Of a stretch of DNA of 55,143 bases, positions 9,773-54,792 are shown one piece after another. The stretch comes from Rhodospirillaceae bacterium (GTDB lineage Bacteria > Pseudomonadota > Alphaproteobacteria > TMED109). Positions within the stretch are counted from its first letter, which is position 1. Each line of letters opens with the position of its first letter. Both the position numbers and the translations under genes were made by a program. The notes beneath the pieces were generated by a model. The model was given only the letters and a program-made list of their open reading frames with translations. It had not been told where the DNA came from and ran no database searches. The DNA is taken from positions 1 to 55,143 of the forward strand of contig CACMQH010000005.1 of the NCBI GenBank assembly GCA_902615805.1, given 5' to 3'.

Positions 9773-10759
9773 ATGTTAATAAATGAGAGAGAATATAATA
9801 AATTTATAGAAAATATTTCAACATATAAGTTTATTCTAATACACGGTCAAGATAGAGGAAAAGTAAACGAAAAATCTCTTGAAATAACAAAGAAACTGAA
9901 TTTCTTAAACCAAAATTCTCTAGAAATCATAAACTTTGACTCTGATGAATTTTATAAATCAGAAAATTACTTCTACGATTTAGTTTATCAAAAGTCTTTT
10001 TTTAGCAAACTTACCTTAATAAGAATAAACCTTGATTTATTAAAAGCAGAAAAAGATATCCTTAAAGCCTTAGAAAATTTAGATATAAATAAAGCTAATT
10101 ATATTATTATTGAATCTAAATACTTAGCAAAAAACTCTTTAATAGCAGGTTTGTTTAAAAAAAATAATACGTATGCTTTAATTACTTGTTACCAAGAAGC
10201 TAATGTGAAGCAATCTATTATTAAATATATAAAACTTTACTCGCTAAATTTAGATAACTACAGCTTAAGTTATTTAATTGAGAAATTTGGTAATGATACT
10301 TTAATCACAAAAAATGAAATAAAAAAGTTAGCGCTGTATTCTAATGGAGAGCAAGTAAACTATACTACTATTTTAGAAGCTATAGGTGATAATTCTCTTA
10401 TTTCATTGTATGAACTAACAGACTCTATTGGCATAGTGAAAAAGGTAAAAATTGATTATTTATATGAAAAAACTTTAAATCTAGGACTAAATTATATTGT
10501 TTTCTTAAGAAGCATAAGCCGTCATTTAAGAATAATATTAGAAGCTAAATCAAATAATCTTAAAAATGCTAAAAATATCAAACCTTTAATACATTTCTCT
10601 AGACATACAAAAATTAATCAACAAATACAAAATATTAGCATAATGCAATTAAAAAAATATTTAGTACAGATATATGAGTTAGAAATTGCTTGTAAAAATA
10701 ATTATGATATTCGCCAACTATTAATTAAAAAGTTTATTATAGGTATGTCTAGTTATTAA
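9773..10759 (+). CDS. holA: DNA polymerase III delta subunit
   Basis: Clamp-loader subunit that opens the beta clamp, 328 residues, close to family length. The N-terminal Rossmann-like part contains KFILIHGQDRGKVNEKS and IIIESKYLAK; the C-terminal helical collar contains LIEKFGNDTLITKNEIKKL and VFLRSISRHLR. Sequence conservation is low but the position after lptE is standard. It starts 8 bases after lptE. Its 3' end overlaps the convergent parB by 11 bases, leaving no space for an intrinsic terminator. Confidence 0.87.
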   Translation: MLINEREYNKFIENISTYKFILIHGQDRGKVNEKSLEITKKLNFLNQNSLEIINFDSDEFYKSENYFYDLVYQKSFFSKLTLIRINLDLLKAEKDILKALENLDINKANYIIIESKYLAKNSLIAGLFKKNNTYALITCYQEANVKQSIIKYIKLYSLNLDNYSLSYLIEKFGNDTLITKNEIKKLALYSNGEQVNYTTILEAIGDNSLISLYELTDSIGIVKKVKIDYLYEKTLNLGLNYIVFLRSISRHLRIILEAKSNNLKNAKNIKPLIHFSRHTKINQQIQNISIMQLKKYLVQIYELEIACKNNYDIRQLLIKKFIIGMSSY

Positions 10760-11639
10760 ATAAATCAATAATAGTATCTAATTGTTCTAGACTTTTATAT
10801 CTTACTAGAAGATATCCTTTTCCTTCTTTATCTTTAATCTCTACTTTGTAACCTAATTTAAGAGATAAATACTTTTCATAATCAACAATATTTGCATCTT
10901 TTAAATTTAATCTCTTTTCAGGAAGAGTATTTTTTTTATCTTTATGTACTCCTGCCCTTAAAAATTCCTCTAATTGTCTTACACTCATATTATCTGTAAT
11001 TACCTTATTGGCTAAAACTAATTGATTTGGAGCATTTAACAAAGCTCTAGCATGTCCAAAAGAGATTTTTTTTTCATTAAGAAGCTTTTTTACACCTTCG
11101 TTTAAACTTAGTATTCTTAAAAGGTTTGTAATATAACTTCTTGATTTTCCTGTGCTTTTAGCTATTTCTTCGTGCTTCATTTTATAGTTTTTTATAAGCT
11201 TGTCATAAGCTATTGCTTCTTCTAATACTGAGAGGTTTTCTCTTTGTACATTTTCAATAATGGCAGCCAAAGCATCTGACTTTTCACTTGTATTTTCAAT
11301 GACTATTGCATTTATTGTTTTCATTTTCAAACTTTTACAAGCTCTCCATCTTCTTTCTCCAGCTATAATTATAAATTTTTTACTATTTGTGCTATTATCT
11401 TTTTTAACCAAAATGGGCATTAAGAGGCCTTGTGCTTTTATAGAGTTAGCTAGCTCATTAATAGAATTCTCATCAAAATAGGTTCTTGGCTGGTGTTGGT
11501 TAGGTTTTATATTATTAATATTTAATGCAAGCCCTGCCTCATTTTTTTCATATTTTCTCTTGGAAATTTCTCTGTTTTCTGCTCCTAATAATATATCTAA
11601 GCCTGTCTTTAATCTCTTTTTTTTAATATTATCAACCAT
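10749..11639 (-). CDS. parB: Chromosome partitioning protein ParB
   Basis: CTP-dependent DNA clamp that loads at parS and spreads, guiding origin segregation. It is 296 residues long. Box motifs are present: QHQPRTYFDE near residue 50, IAGERRWRA (CTP pocket) at about residue 96, and ENVQRENLSVLEEA near residue 130. The HTH that reads parS follows (EEIAKSTGKSRSYITNLLRI), then a C-terminal dimer domain. Two matching parS sites lie 3.3 kb away, at 14963 and 15001. The start codon region meets the parA stop at 11639, so translation is probably coupled. Confidence 0.96.
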   Translation of the reverse strand: MVDNIKKKRLKTGLDILLGAENREISKRKYEKNEAGLALNINNIKPNQHQPRTYFDENSINELANSIKAQGLLMPILVKKDNSTNSKKFIIIAGERRWRACKSLKMKTINAIVIENTSEKSDALAAIIENVQRENLSVLEEAIAYDKLIKNYKMKHEEIAKSTGKSRSYITNLLRILSLNEGVKKLLNEKKISFGHARALLNAPNQLVLANKVITDNMSVRQLEEFLRAGVHKDKKNTLPEKRLNLKDANIVDYEKYLSLKLGYKVEIKDKEGKGYLLVRYKSLEQLDTIIDLFNN

Positions 11640-12418
11640 TAAACTACCTCTACTCTTTTTATAAACTCTTTAGCGAGTTCAATATACGCCTCGGAACCCA
11701 TACATTTTCTATCATATAAAATTGCTGGCAGTCCATGACTTGGAGCCTCTGATAGCCTTACGTTTCTTGGAATAATAGTATTGAATACCTTATTTCCTAA
11801 GTGCTTTTTTGCATCATTAATAACATCTTCAGATAATCTATTTCTGCTATCATACATTGTTAAAACTATTCCTTCTAACTCTAAGTTTGGGTTGAGGTTG
11901 CTTTTTACGGCTTCAACGGTTTTCAATAATTGGGCTAGACCTTCTAATGCATAAAATTCACACTGTAAAGGAACCAGCAATAATTCTGATGCAACCAAAG
12001 AATTAATAGTGAGTATACCAAGAGAGGGAGGACAATCGATAATAATAAAATCATATTCGCTTTCTATATTATTGATTTTGTTATATAGTTTTTTATTTCT
12101 GTTTTCATCATCACTTAGCTCAAACTCTATTCCTGACAAATTTATGCCAGAAGGAATTATATTTAAATAGGGAATTTTAGTTTTTATAGAAGCTTTTTCG
12201 ATTGATATTTTTTCTACCATTATCAAGTCATAAACATTAATTTTTCTATCTTCACTCTTAATACCTAGTCCAGTCGACAAGTTACCCTGTGGATCTAAAT
12301 CTATTAATAGAACTTTTTTATTAATTGCCGCAAGCGCTGTGCTAAGGTTTACCGCTGTAGTTGTTTTTCCTACCCCTCCTTTCTGATTTACGACTGATAT
12401 GATCTTAGTTTTGTTCAT
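11639..12418 (-). CDS. parA: Chromosome partitioning ATPase ParA (Soj)
   Basis: Nucleoid-bound Walker ATPase that moves ParB-parS complexes. It is 259 residues, typical for chromosomal ParA. Deviant Walker A is NQKGGVGKTTTAVN (about residues 11-24) with the signature lysine; Walker A' and B are LLIDLDPQGNLSTGLG and YDFIIIDCPPSLG. The C-terminus (PRNVRLSEAPSHGLP) is the usual chromosomal type. It overlaps rsmG by 4 bases upstream and parB by 1 base downstream, within the mnmE-mnmG-rsmG-parA-parB run. Confidence 0.97.
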   Translation of the reverse strand: MNKTKIISVVNQKGGVGKTTTAVNLSTALAAINKKVLLIDLDPQGNLSTGLGIKSEDRKINVYDLIMVEKISIEKASIKTKIPYLNIIPSGINLSGIEFELSDDENRNKKLYNKINNIESEYDFIIIDCPPSLGILTINSLVASELLLVPLQCEFYALEGLAQLLKTVEAVKSNLNPNLELEGIVLTMYDSRNRLSEDVINDAKKHLGNKVFNTIIPRNVRLSEAPSHGLPAILYDRKCMGSEAYIELAKEFIKRVEVV

Positions 12419-53597: not shown

Positions 53598-53649
53598 TTG
53601 CAAAAAGTGCATATTTATTTGCAAATTATGCATAAGTTGCATATATAAT
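53598..53649 (+). promoter_or_regulatory. Repeated TTGCAA...TGCATA boxes before the XRE gene
   Basis: Two similar 16-base boxes, at 53598-53613 and 53619-53634, start 21 bases apart. The second contains the palindromes ATTTGCAAAT (53617-53626) and TATGCATA (53627-53634). TTGCATA recurs at 53637-53643 and TATAAT lies at 53644-53649. This looks like a promoter (TTGCAA-19-TATAAT) overlapped by operators. The leader would be very short. Confidence 0.5.
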
Positions 53650-53656
53650 AATAATT

Positions 53657-53857
53657 ATGAAACCTGAAGAATTTAAAAAATGGCGAAAATCCCTTGGATT
53701 ATCTCAAAAAAAAGCTGCAGAAATGCTTGGCTTAAAAATTAGAATTATTCAATATTATGAAAAAGGTAAAAAAGGGAAAAAGACTATAAATATACCTAAA
53801 TATATACAGTTAGCGTGCTTAGCTCTAGAAGTACAAAATAAAATTAATAAAATATAG
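53657..53857 (+). CDS. Small XRE-family HTH regulator
   Basis: A 66-residue protein made almost entirely of one Cro/CI-type helix-turn-helix: EEFKKWRKSLGLSQKKAAEM, then LGLKIRIIQYYEKGKKGKK, then NIPKYIQLACLALEVQNK. This is a DNA-binding module without a sensor domain, so probably a local or autoregulator. The upstream boxes are its likely operators. The next gene encodes a protein with a similar N-terminus, and TGCATA motifs occur before both. Confidence 0.85.
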   Translation: MKPEEFKKWRKSLGLSQKKAAEMLGLKIRIIQYYEKGKKGKKTINIPKYIQLACLALEVQNKINKI

Positions 53858-53908
53858 TTGACAATATTTAAAGAATGCATAATATGCATATTACGCAACT
53901 ATTGCGTA
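53858..53908 (+). promoter_or_regulatory. Promoter and perfect palindrome before the lysine-rich gene
   Basis: TTGACA (53858-53863) directly follows the XRE stop codon; TAATAT (53880-53885) lies 16 bases on. Two ATGCAT motifs overlap the -10 region. A perfect 17-base inverted repeat, TACGCAACTATTGCGTA (53892-53908), sits at the expected transcription start. AGGAGG follows at 53917-53922. Together they suggest a repressed or autoregulated promoter. Confidence 0.55.
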
Positions 53909-53927
53909 CAATAAACAGGAGGATGAA

Positions 53928-54572
53928 ATGCAACTAAATGTAGAAAAACCAAAACAATTTAAAAGCTGGCTCAAAAGTAATAAAATGAGTTCAAAGAAAT
54001 TTGCTAAAATATCTGGTATTAAGCAACAAGCTTTGAAAAAGGCTACTAAAAAAAAGAGTTTACCCAAGATAATAGGATTAACTTGTTCAACTGTTGATTT
54101 AGAAAAAAAAACTAAGTCCTTAAAAAAATCAAATAACTCAAATAAAAAGCTTTTAAATAAACTTAAATCAGTAAAAAAAGATAATGCTAAATTAAGTAAA
54201 TTGGCTAAAAAAGCTAAAAGCAGCAACAAAAATAGTACTAAAAAATTAGCTAGCAAACTTAAATCAGTAAAAAAAGATAACGCTAAATTAAGTAAATTGG
54301 CTAAAAAAGCTAAAAGTATTAAAAAACAAAACTCAAAGCTTAAAAATAATAATAAGGCTTTAAAAGCAAAGTTAAAAAAATCAACTAAATTAGGTGCTAA
54401 GAAGACAAGTAAAACTAAGGCTAAAGCAAAAAAGACAGTTACAGTAAAAGCACCAGTTAAAAAAAATAACATTGCTTTAAATAAAGATGATACTAGCACT
54501 AAAAGTAATATTAAAGAACAAAGTGGTAGTACTGAACCTAGAAAAATAGAAGTTAATATTGATAATAATTAA
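53928..54572 (+). CDS. Lysine-rich protein with degenerate HTH N-terminus and repeats
   Basis: No named family recognised. The 214-residue, very basic protein starts with about 58 residues that parallel the neighbouring XRE protein: FKSWLKSNKMSSKKFAKISG here against FKKWRKSLGLSQKKAAEMLG there, and later LPKIIGLTC against IPKYIQLAC, with the recognition-helix part altered. Then come lysine-rich heptad-like repeats, including KLKSVKKDNAKLSKLAKKAK twice (about residues 78 and 110), and an A/K/T-rich segment like a histone H1 tail. The last 30 residues are polar. It resembles a nucleoid-binding or DNA-bridging protein (inference). AGGAGG 5 bases upstream fixes the ATG. Confidence 0.75.
   Translation: MQLNVEKPKQFKSWLKSNKMSSKKFAKISGIKQQALKKATKKKSLPKIIGLTCSTVDLEKKTKSLKKSNNSNKKLLNKLKSVKKDNAKLSKLAKKAKSSNKNSTKKLASKLKSVKKDNAKLSKLAKKAKSIKKQNSKLKNNNKALKAKLKKSTKLGAKKTSKTKAKAKKTVTVKAPVKKNNIALNKDDTSTKSNIKEQSGSTEPRKIEVNIDNN
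54159..54316 (+). repeat. 62-bp direct repeat inside the lysine-rich gene
   Basis: Copies at 54159-54220 and 54255-54316 are identical except for one T/C difference. They are 96 bases apart, a multiple of three, so each copy encodes the same 20-residue basic unit. The near-identity suggests a recent duplication or selection on DNA. Confidence 0.9.
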
Positions 54573-54580
54573 GGTATATA

Positions 54581-54604
54581 TGCTAGGGAGTAAACTCCCT
54601 AGCA
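54581..54604 (+). terminator. Hairpin after the lysine-rich gene
   Basis: A perfect 10-bp stem, TGCTAGGGAG (54581-54590) with CTCCCTAGCA (54595-54604), and a TAAA loop, 9 bases after the stop codon. No real T run follows, so it may be a Rho-assisted end or an RNA-stabilising hairpin rather than a classical terminator. Confidence 0.6.
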
Positions 54605-54703: not shown

Positions 54704-54792
54704 CGTTTAAATAGTCTTCTATTTGCATTAAGAAAGTAAATTTTACTCCGCTTAAATAGTCTTTTATTTGTATTAAGAAAGTAAATTTTACG
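54704..54792. repeat. Two 45-bp tandem repeats with a small palindrome
   Basis: Copies at 54704-54747 and 54749-54792 differ at only three internal positions, all C/T. Each contains the 11-base inverted repeat GTAAATTTTAC. The repeats lie in the 211-base gap between the hairpin and the ParA-like gene; the rest of that gap shows nothing else clear. Confidence 0.85.

Follow-up and report, generated by a model that had tools for sequence, protein, structure and literature searches.

The stretch of DNA analysed here (the window) is one contig of 55,143 b with a G+C content of 29%, taken from the genome (G000; 1.18 Mb, 76% complete) of a small ocean bacterium. Two adjacent genes, P1 and P2, are followed in it by a convergent gene for a small ParA-type ATPase, which is cut off here by the contig end and complete in two relatives, G002 and G017 (Table 1). 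An earlier note, made from the letters alone, had picked out P1 and P2 as a regulator and its lysine-rich paralogue, and both open reading frames were confirmed.

Table 1. Features of the P1-P2 locus and its surroundings, in window coordinates.
Feature	Position	Strand	Basis or remark
P1 promoter operator, TTGCAA-AAA-GTGCAT	53598..53612	.	fits the palindrome of distant P1 homologues; conserved in G001, G002 and G017
P1 promoter half-site array, TTGCAA-ATT-ATGCAT-AAG-TTGCAT	53619..53642	.	
P1, 66 aa, Aca1-fold HTH repressor	53657..53857	+	Pfam HTH_3, AlphaFold model, Foldseek
P2 promoter, sigma70-type, TTGACA-N16-TAATAT	53858..53885	+	TAnTAT kept in G001, G002 and G017
P2 operator array, ATGCAT-AAT-ATGCAT-ATT-ACGCAA-CTA-TTGCGT	53875..53907	.	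four half-sites, 9-bp period
P2 Shine-Dalgarno, AGGAGG, strong	53917..53922	+	sequence
P2, 214 aa: HTH core aa 8-41, basic coiled coil ~58-151, disordered basic ~152-184, conserved non-basic C-terminus 185-214	53928..54572	+	
Two tandem 96-nt (32-aa) coiled-coil units of P2	54147..54338	+	three units in G017
Perfect inverted repeat GCTAGGGAGTAAACTCCCTAGC, 3' of P2 between the convergent genes	54582..54603	.	sequence
Small ParA-type ATPase, 3' part (full 208 aa), cut by contig end	54816..55142	-	98% identical to the full G002 gene

P1 is one of a family of Aca1-fold proteins that is widespread in Alphaproteobacteria. It matched Pfam HTH_3 (E 7.6e-8; 32.7 bits against a cut-off of 23), and its AlphaFold model (pLDDT 95.6) has helices at residues 3-12, 17-24 and 28-36. 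The first Foldseek match was the Aca1-DNA complex 7c0g (probability 1.0), a profile search of the PDB also found Aca1 (E 3e-4), and VIA structure comparison gave Z scores of 7.9 for Aca1 and 9.4-10.0 for Aca2 and NE0471; by these measures the HTH core belongs with the HTH_3/Aca1-fold repressors. R29 of P1 aligned to R44 of Aca1, and R29, Q32, Y33, Y34 and E35 are invariant across 37 members of the family. In Aca2, R30 is required for autoregulation (PMC8434428), and R30, Q33 and Y34 are reported to be important for promoter recognition (PMC9410881); on our own reading these three correspond to R29, Q32 and Y33 of P1. P1 does not qualify as an Aca protein, that is, one encoded in an operon with acr and usually on a mobile element, as its neighbours are housekeeping and phosphate genes and P2 is its paralogue and no known acr.

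Homologues of P1 were drawn from 80 named loci. The closest named matches came from 'Rhodospirillaceae bacterium' isolates AG-896-G13, AG-390-K05 and AG-430-C17, which look like single-cell genomes from a group that resembles SAR116. Neither P2 nor a ParA of the window type was found near any of the 77 distant homologues. Approximately 30 of these 77 have carA on one side and carB on the other (median offsets ~-2.0 kb and +0.4 kb), a placement that was checked with Pfam at locus L058; such loci show 2-4 operators ~30 bp apart. With tblastn, P1-like genes were also found in Casadabanvirus phages, each the third in a row of three small genes that separate capsid/scaffold from a Mu-like I protein.

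At the level of sequence, P1 and P2 are almost certainly paralogues. Their N-termini are 38-39% identical and share the three motifs that the earlier note had recognised (FKKWRKS, SQKKAA and PKYIQLAC in P1; FKSWLKS, SSKKFA and PKIIGLTC in P2). Because the Smith-Waterman score of 101 stood far outside 5000 shuffles (mean 28.2, sd 5.4, maximum 62; Z 13.5), tblastn inside the same genome recovered the match (E 6e-5), and profile-profile comparison gave a probability of 91% over 52 columns, the resemblance exceeds what composition would produce. P2 also reads as a genuine gene, with a Shine-Dalgarno (AGGAGG), a promoter (TTGACA-N16-TAATAT), zero frameshifts across three genomes, and dN/dS values, given below for its two parts, that agree with this.

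P2 had zero matches in Pfam. Its AlphaFold model, built on three close sequences and with a mean pLDDT of 69, places helices at residues 8-17, 22-29 and 33-41, equal in length and spacing to the three of P1, which agrees with the structural similarity of the N-termini that had been expected. Matches of this HTH to Aca1 in the VIA comparison were modest (Z 4.6-4.9). The earlier statement that P2 had lost part of its HTH therefore needs to be divided: P2 keeps the homologous three-helix core of a P1-like HTH domain, and what is missing is a segment of six residues after the recognition helix, together with the family invariants R29/Q32/Y33/Y34/E35, which are replaced by Q34/K37/K38/A39/T40. The base-contact residues R29/Q32/Y33 are thus absent from P2 (Q34/K37/K38). 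Several database matches of P2 were set aside. A match of its N-terminus to the 'Chloroplast PsbY' chain 9hd7 (E 2.5e-5) was judged compositional because the query is lysine-rich and the single matched stretches were all below the limit; the top VIA match, a MutS2 model (Z 5.6, rmsd 8.7), is a meaningless long-helix match, and weak NCBIfam matches (ProA, Rad50) reflect coiled-coil composition.

The long basic repeat tail described earlier is indeed present: the tail has a net charge of +57 and is 31% lysine, rising to 40% in the coil segment, and the ~32-aa repeat occurs twice in G000 and G002 and three times in G017, with 25/32 residues identical between the copies in the window. Its comparison to histone H1 has to be narrowed. 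Because hydrophobic residues between ~58 and 151 recur with a period of 3.5, which 0 of 2000 shuffles reached, this segment is a predicted coiled coil, and the fourth helix extends to residue ~151. The character of a disordered basic tail is limited to residues ~152-184, where there is one proline; in place of the long disordered K/A/P-rich repeats of AlgP or H1-like tails, P2 has a heptad coil and zero KPAA repeats. The C-terminal 30 residues carry almost no net charge (-1) and are mostly conserved. Compared with G017, dN/dS was 0.027 for residues 1-86 and 0.35 for the tail, so the tail is constrained, less strongly than the N-terminus.

We then consider the promoters of the two genes. In k-mer counts upstream of distant P1 homologues, TGCGCAC/GTGCGCA words stood out, and a palindrome resembling RYGCAC-N3-GTGCRY was present within 250 bp upstream of 56 of 76 of them (background segments, 0.6%; shuffle mean, 1.2), often in 2-4 copies ~30 bp apart. 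The pattern was written, with relaxed letters, after inspection of the distant upstream regions and the window. Since the relaxed letters admit the AT-rich form found in the window, the independent evidence is the enrichment in distant genomes, and the scan of the window is evidence for specificity of location: across the full 55 kb there are five sites, between 53598 and 53907, all of them in the P1 and P2 promoters. P1 therefore has, by sequence, a palindromic operator in its own promoter, where the site at 53628-53642 is spaced 30 bp from the first operator. Arrays of three half-sites occur in the whole genome at the P1 promoter, the P2 promoter and one other place. The DNA bound by Aca1 contains GGCACACTGTGCC and GGCACAATGTGCC, two GGCAC-N3-GTGCC palindromes (PMC9410881), and thus the published Aca1 site and the palindrome of the P1 family have a GCAC-N3-GTGC core in common. 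Because family palindromes occur in both promoters and the P2 array overlaps the -10 element, P1 likely represses both genes.

A second perfect ATGCATAATATGCAT in the genome falls within a carotenoid-cyclase-like coding region (L039, 1501-1515) and hence was attributed to chance; this gene, which holds the only other perfect copy, is followed by one whose product, a membrane protein, resembles a retinal-forming dioxygenase. A TGCAT palindrome was also seen in three relatives that lack P1, intergenic and beside an aminopeptidase-like gene (G006, G009 and G013; loci L028, L032 and L033), exact in G009 and G013 and with one mismatch in G006. Downstream of P2, the stem of GCTAGGGAGTAAACTCCCTAGC is largely kept in G002 and G017, and the scan did not call it a terminator because a T-run is missing. 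Two 43-bp direct repeats, 45 bp apart, lie between P2 and ParA (window 54704-54791); in this form they were not found in G017.

P1 and P2 occur together in G000, G002 and G017, which are 3 of 28 family genomes and represent two genera; the pair is therefore not confined to the window, as the earlier reading required, and is accessory within the family. A fourth family genome, G001, has P1 at 56 nt from a contig end. P1 is absent from ten family genomes that are >90% complete, and those with the pair are 55-76% complete. The genes flanking the pair keep the same order among the carriers. The locus is chromosomal, because the contig also carries chromosomal ParA and ParB and origin-region genes; the canonical ParA/ParB (window 10749-12418) lie ~42 kb from the module, beside gidB/gidA/mnmE-like genes. 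Phage origin was considered and rejected: viral contigs yielded no relatives of P2 or ParA, and six weak ones of P1 (40-51% identity). Plasmid relatives of the P2 N-terminus were not found either.

The pair sits in a phosphate-stress island. Around the module are genes for PhoX, a DAGK-type lipid kinase, a SixA-like phosphatase, ArsJ with its GAPDH, and PhoB, as well as a metallophosphoesterase-glycosyltransferase pair that is taken to be PlcP-Agt-like from its Pfam domains, its gene order and the account given in PMC4796936. A search for a Pho box at P1 or P2 found none; in G002, a candidate with 3 mismatches precedes the PlcP-like gene by 32 nt, which is within chance. PPK1 is encoded in all four genomes with P1 and also in relatives without the module (G010 and G014). 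Polyhydroxyalkanoate (PHA) granules were discarded as a cargo, since PhaC was not found in the seven genomes searched.

At a threshold of E 1e-10, the family genomes found to have this ParA gene are the three that carry P1-P2. The full protein matched Pfam AAA_31/CbiA, and NF041546 below its cut-off (E 7e-35). Its gene begins 3 nt beyond the Agt-like gene and runs in the same direction as the Agt/PlcP-like genes, opposite to P2. We searched for relatives among 385 alphaproteobacterial genomes and examined the 15 closest: in 9 of the 15, and also in Indioceanicola, a CYTH-CHAD gene lies directly ahead of ParA (four of these neighbours verified by Pfam), and in the other 6 of the 15 a neighbouring CHAD gene is missing. 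At L193, L194, L198, L200, L202-L206 and L214, a chromosomal small ParA follows a same-strand CYTH-CHAD gene at 6-55 nt (aligned ends); at these ten alphaproteobacterial loci, CYTH-CHAD and ParA are a candidate positioning pair for polyphosphate granules. In the tree, the window ParA grouped with the CHAD-linked chromosomal ParAs, separated from plasmid ParF/ParG by a split of 96/94, with long branches and skewed composition. By sequence grouping it thus belongs to the CHAD-linked family; no CYTH-CHAD gene was found next door, in the island or near ppk1, where these regions were searched, and neither ParF grouping nor an adjacent ParG was found. CHAD domains bind polyphosphate (PMC6537752), and a conserved folD-ppk-parA-CHAD cluster is described in Acidithiobacillus, with no positioning role proposed in that part of the source (PMC10892726).

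Taken as a mechanism, P1 would be an autorepressor of the Aca1 fold that binds as a dimer to RYGCAN-N3-NTGCRY palindromes, both in the promoter of its own gene and over the -10 element of P2. P2 would be a duplicate of P1 that keeps the HTH core and no longer reads sequence, with its fourth helix running on as a lysine-rich coiled coil; because the base contacts are replaced and the coil is lysine-rich, P2 would dimerise and bind DNA or polyanions without sequence preference, a property we consider probable. This agrees with the earlier proposal that a regulator was duplicated and became a nucleoid-binding or DNA-bridging protein as far as N-terminal homology, matching helices, loss of base contacts and a cationic tail go; nucleoid binding itself we infer. 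P2 would then serve the convergent ParA as a tether or adaptor that keeps a polyanionic cargo, of which polyphosphate granules are the likeliest, on the nucleoid, and ParA would space the cargo during phosphate stress. We infer partnership with ParA and a polyphosphate cargo as the most economical reading of the neighbourhood. The partnership, drawn from three syntenic genomes and the association of the ParA family, is tentative, and polyphosphate as the cargo is somewhat more doubtful still; during phosphate shortage, the tethered cargo may instead be the chromosome rather than a granule. P2 is homologous neither to CHAD nor to any known ParA partner. Altogether, we assign the account in which P1 is a repressor and P2 a nucleoid or polyanion tether for ParA, perhaps with polyphosphate as its cargo, a probability of about 0.37.

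Much of the evidence would also be accommodated if P2, controlled by P1, simply bridged DNA as a nucleoid-associated protein and ParA were an unrelated part of the Agt/PlcP-like operon. The charge, HTH core and coil of P2 suit DNA bridging, ParA is transcribed with the Agt-like gene (3 nt gap) and opposite to P2, and the sequence evidence for the pair is explained without ParA. However, ParA and P1-P2 have one distribution in the family and relatives of this ParA are associated with a polyanion-binding protein, although, with only three genomes that are all closely syntenic, co-occurrence of P1, P2 and ParA may reflect shared ancestry of the island. We regard simple bridging as a reasonable minority reading. 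Partition by a relic cassette, with ParA as motor, P2 as centromere-binding protein and the TGCA arrays as centromere, would account for the iteration of these arrays, and ParF-type ATPases do pair with a small DNA-binding partner (ParG is annotated beside ParA). This is improbable, as the ParA groups with chromosomal CHAD-linked ParAs away from ParF, the arrays match the operators of P1 homologues in whose vicinity ParA is absent, and the neighbours are all chromosomal in a genome that has its own ParAB.

The common fold core, the adjacency of the genes and the same operators in both promoters could also indicate a two-gene switch, in which P2 antagonises P1 in transcription through heterodimers or by coating operators, and arrays with a 9-bp period could hold mixed oligomers. 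A polycationic extension of 150 residues would be superfluous for such an antagonist, and P2 has lost its base-contact residues and shortened the segment after the recognition helix; we think this unlikely. Least credible, and barely worth entertaining, is a counter-defence locus like those of anti-CRISPRs, with P1 as an Aca1-like regulator and P2 as its effector. It is suggested by the Aca1 fold of P1, an Aca1-like operator core and the Casadabanvirus genes, but phage genes are absent around the locus, P1 homologues are chromosomal, and P2 is a paralogue of P1 with no PHROG or PADLOC matches and no relatives on viral contigs.

Compared with known systems, P1 resembles Aca1 (PDB 7c0g, 7fa3 and 7vjm) in fold, recognition-helix arginine and paired promoter sites, and its family has a dyad operator with the same core; it differs in being chromosomal and without an acr gene, and the window operators have the AT-rich form YGCAN-N3-NTGCR. 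In Pseudomonas, polyphosphate granules are spaced by AlgP, which binds DNA and has an H1-like tail (PMC9239181); a 2025 review lists AlgP both as the scaffold and as the binder of the organelle, enters 'AlgP/?' for the spacing component and gives ATP dependence as 'Unknown' (PMC13052382). P2 would act in an AlgP-like manner, and like the granule tethers AlgP and PhaF it has a basic repeat tail of variable copy number. Unlike them, it lacks KPAA repeats and a phasin domain, and has an Aca1-like HTH, a heptad coiled coil and ParA next door. The window ParA falls in the subfamily of the alphaproteobacterial ParA-CHAD pairs, with P2 in place of the adjacent CHAD gene; a parA-CHAD pairing is also reported for Acidithiobacillus (PMC10892726). 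Positioning of carboxysomes by McdA/McdB is similar in the proposed mechanism, through a ParA-type ATPase and a small charged partner, and carboxysome genes were not noticed in the island. As in ParF-ParG (type Ib plasmid partition), the ATPase is small and without its own HTH, whereas it groups apart from ParF and P2 is an HTH plus coil where ParG is a ribbon-helix-helix protein.

The helical core of P2, its coiled coil, the family operators at both promoters and the co-distributed convergent ParA all go beyond the earlier note. A speculative extension, and an unlikely one, is that P2, as a repressor paralogue, has replaced CHAD as cargo adaptor of a dedicated polyphosphate-granule ParA while the parent repressor sets its dose. 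A ParA subfamily found behind CYTH-CHAD in several Alphaproteobacteria, and here beside a polycationic coiled-coil protein, is a direct candidate for the missing motor of polyphosphate granules. P1 and P2 would also illustrate how a repressor may become a bridging protein while its parent retains control, and the palindrome provides an operator that can be tested for a large family of alphaproteobacterial repressors that is apparently uncharacterised.
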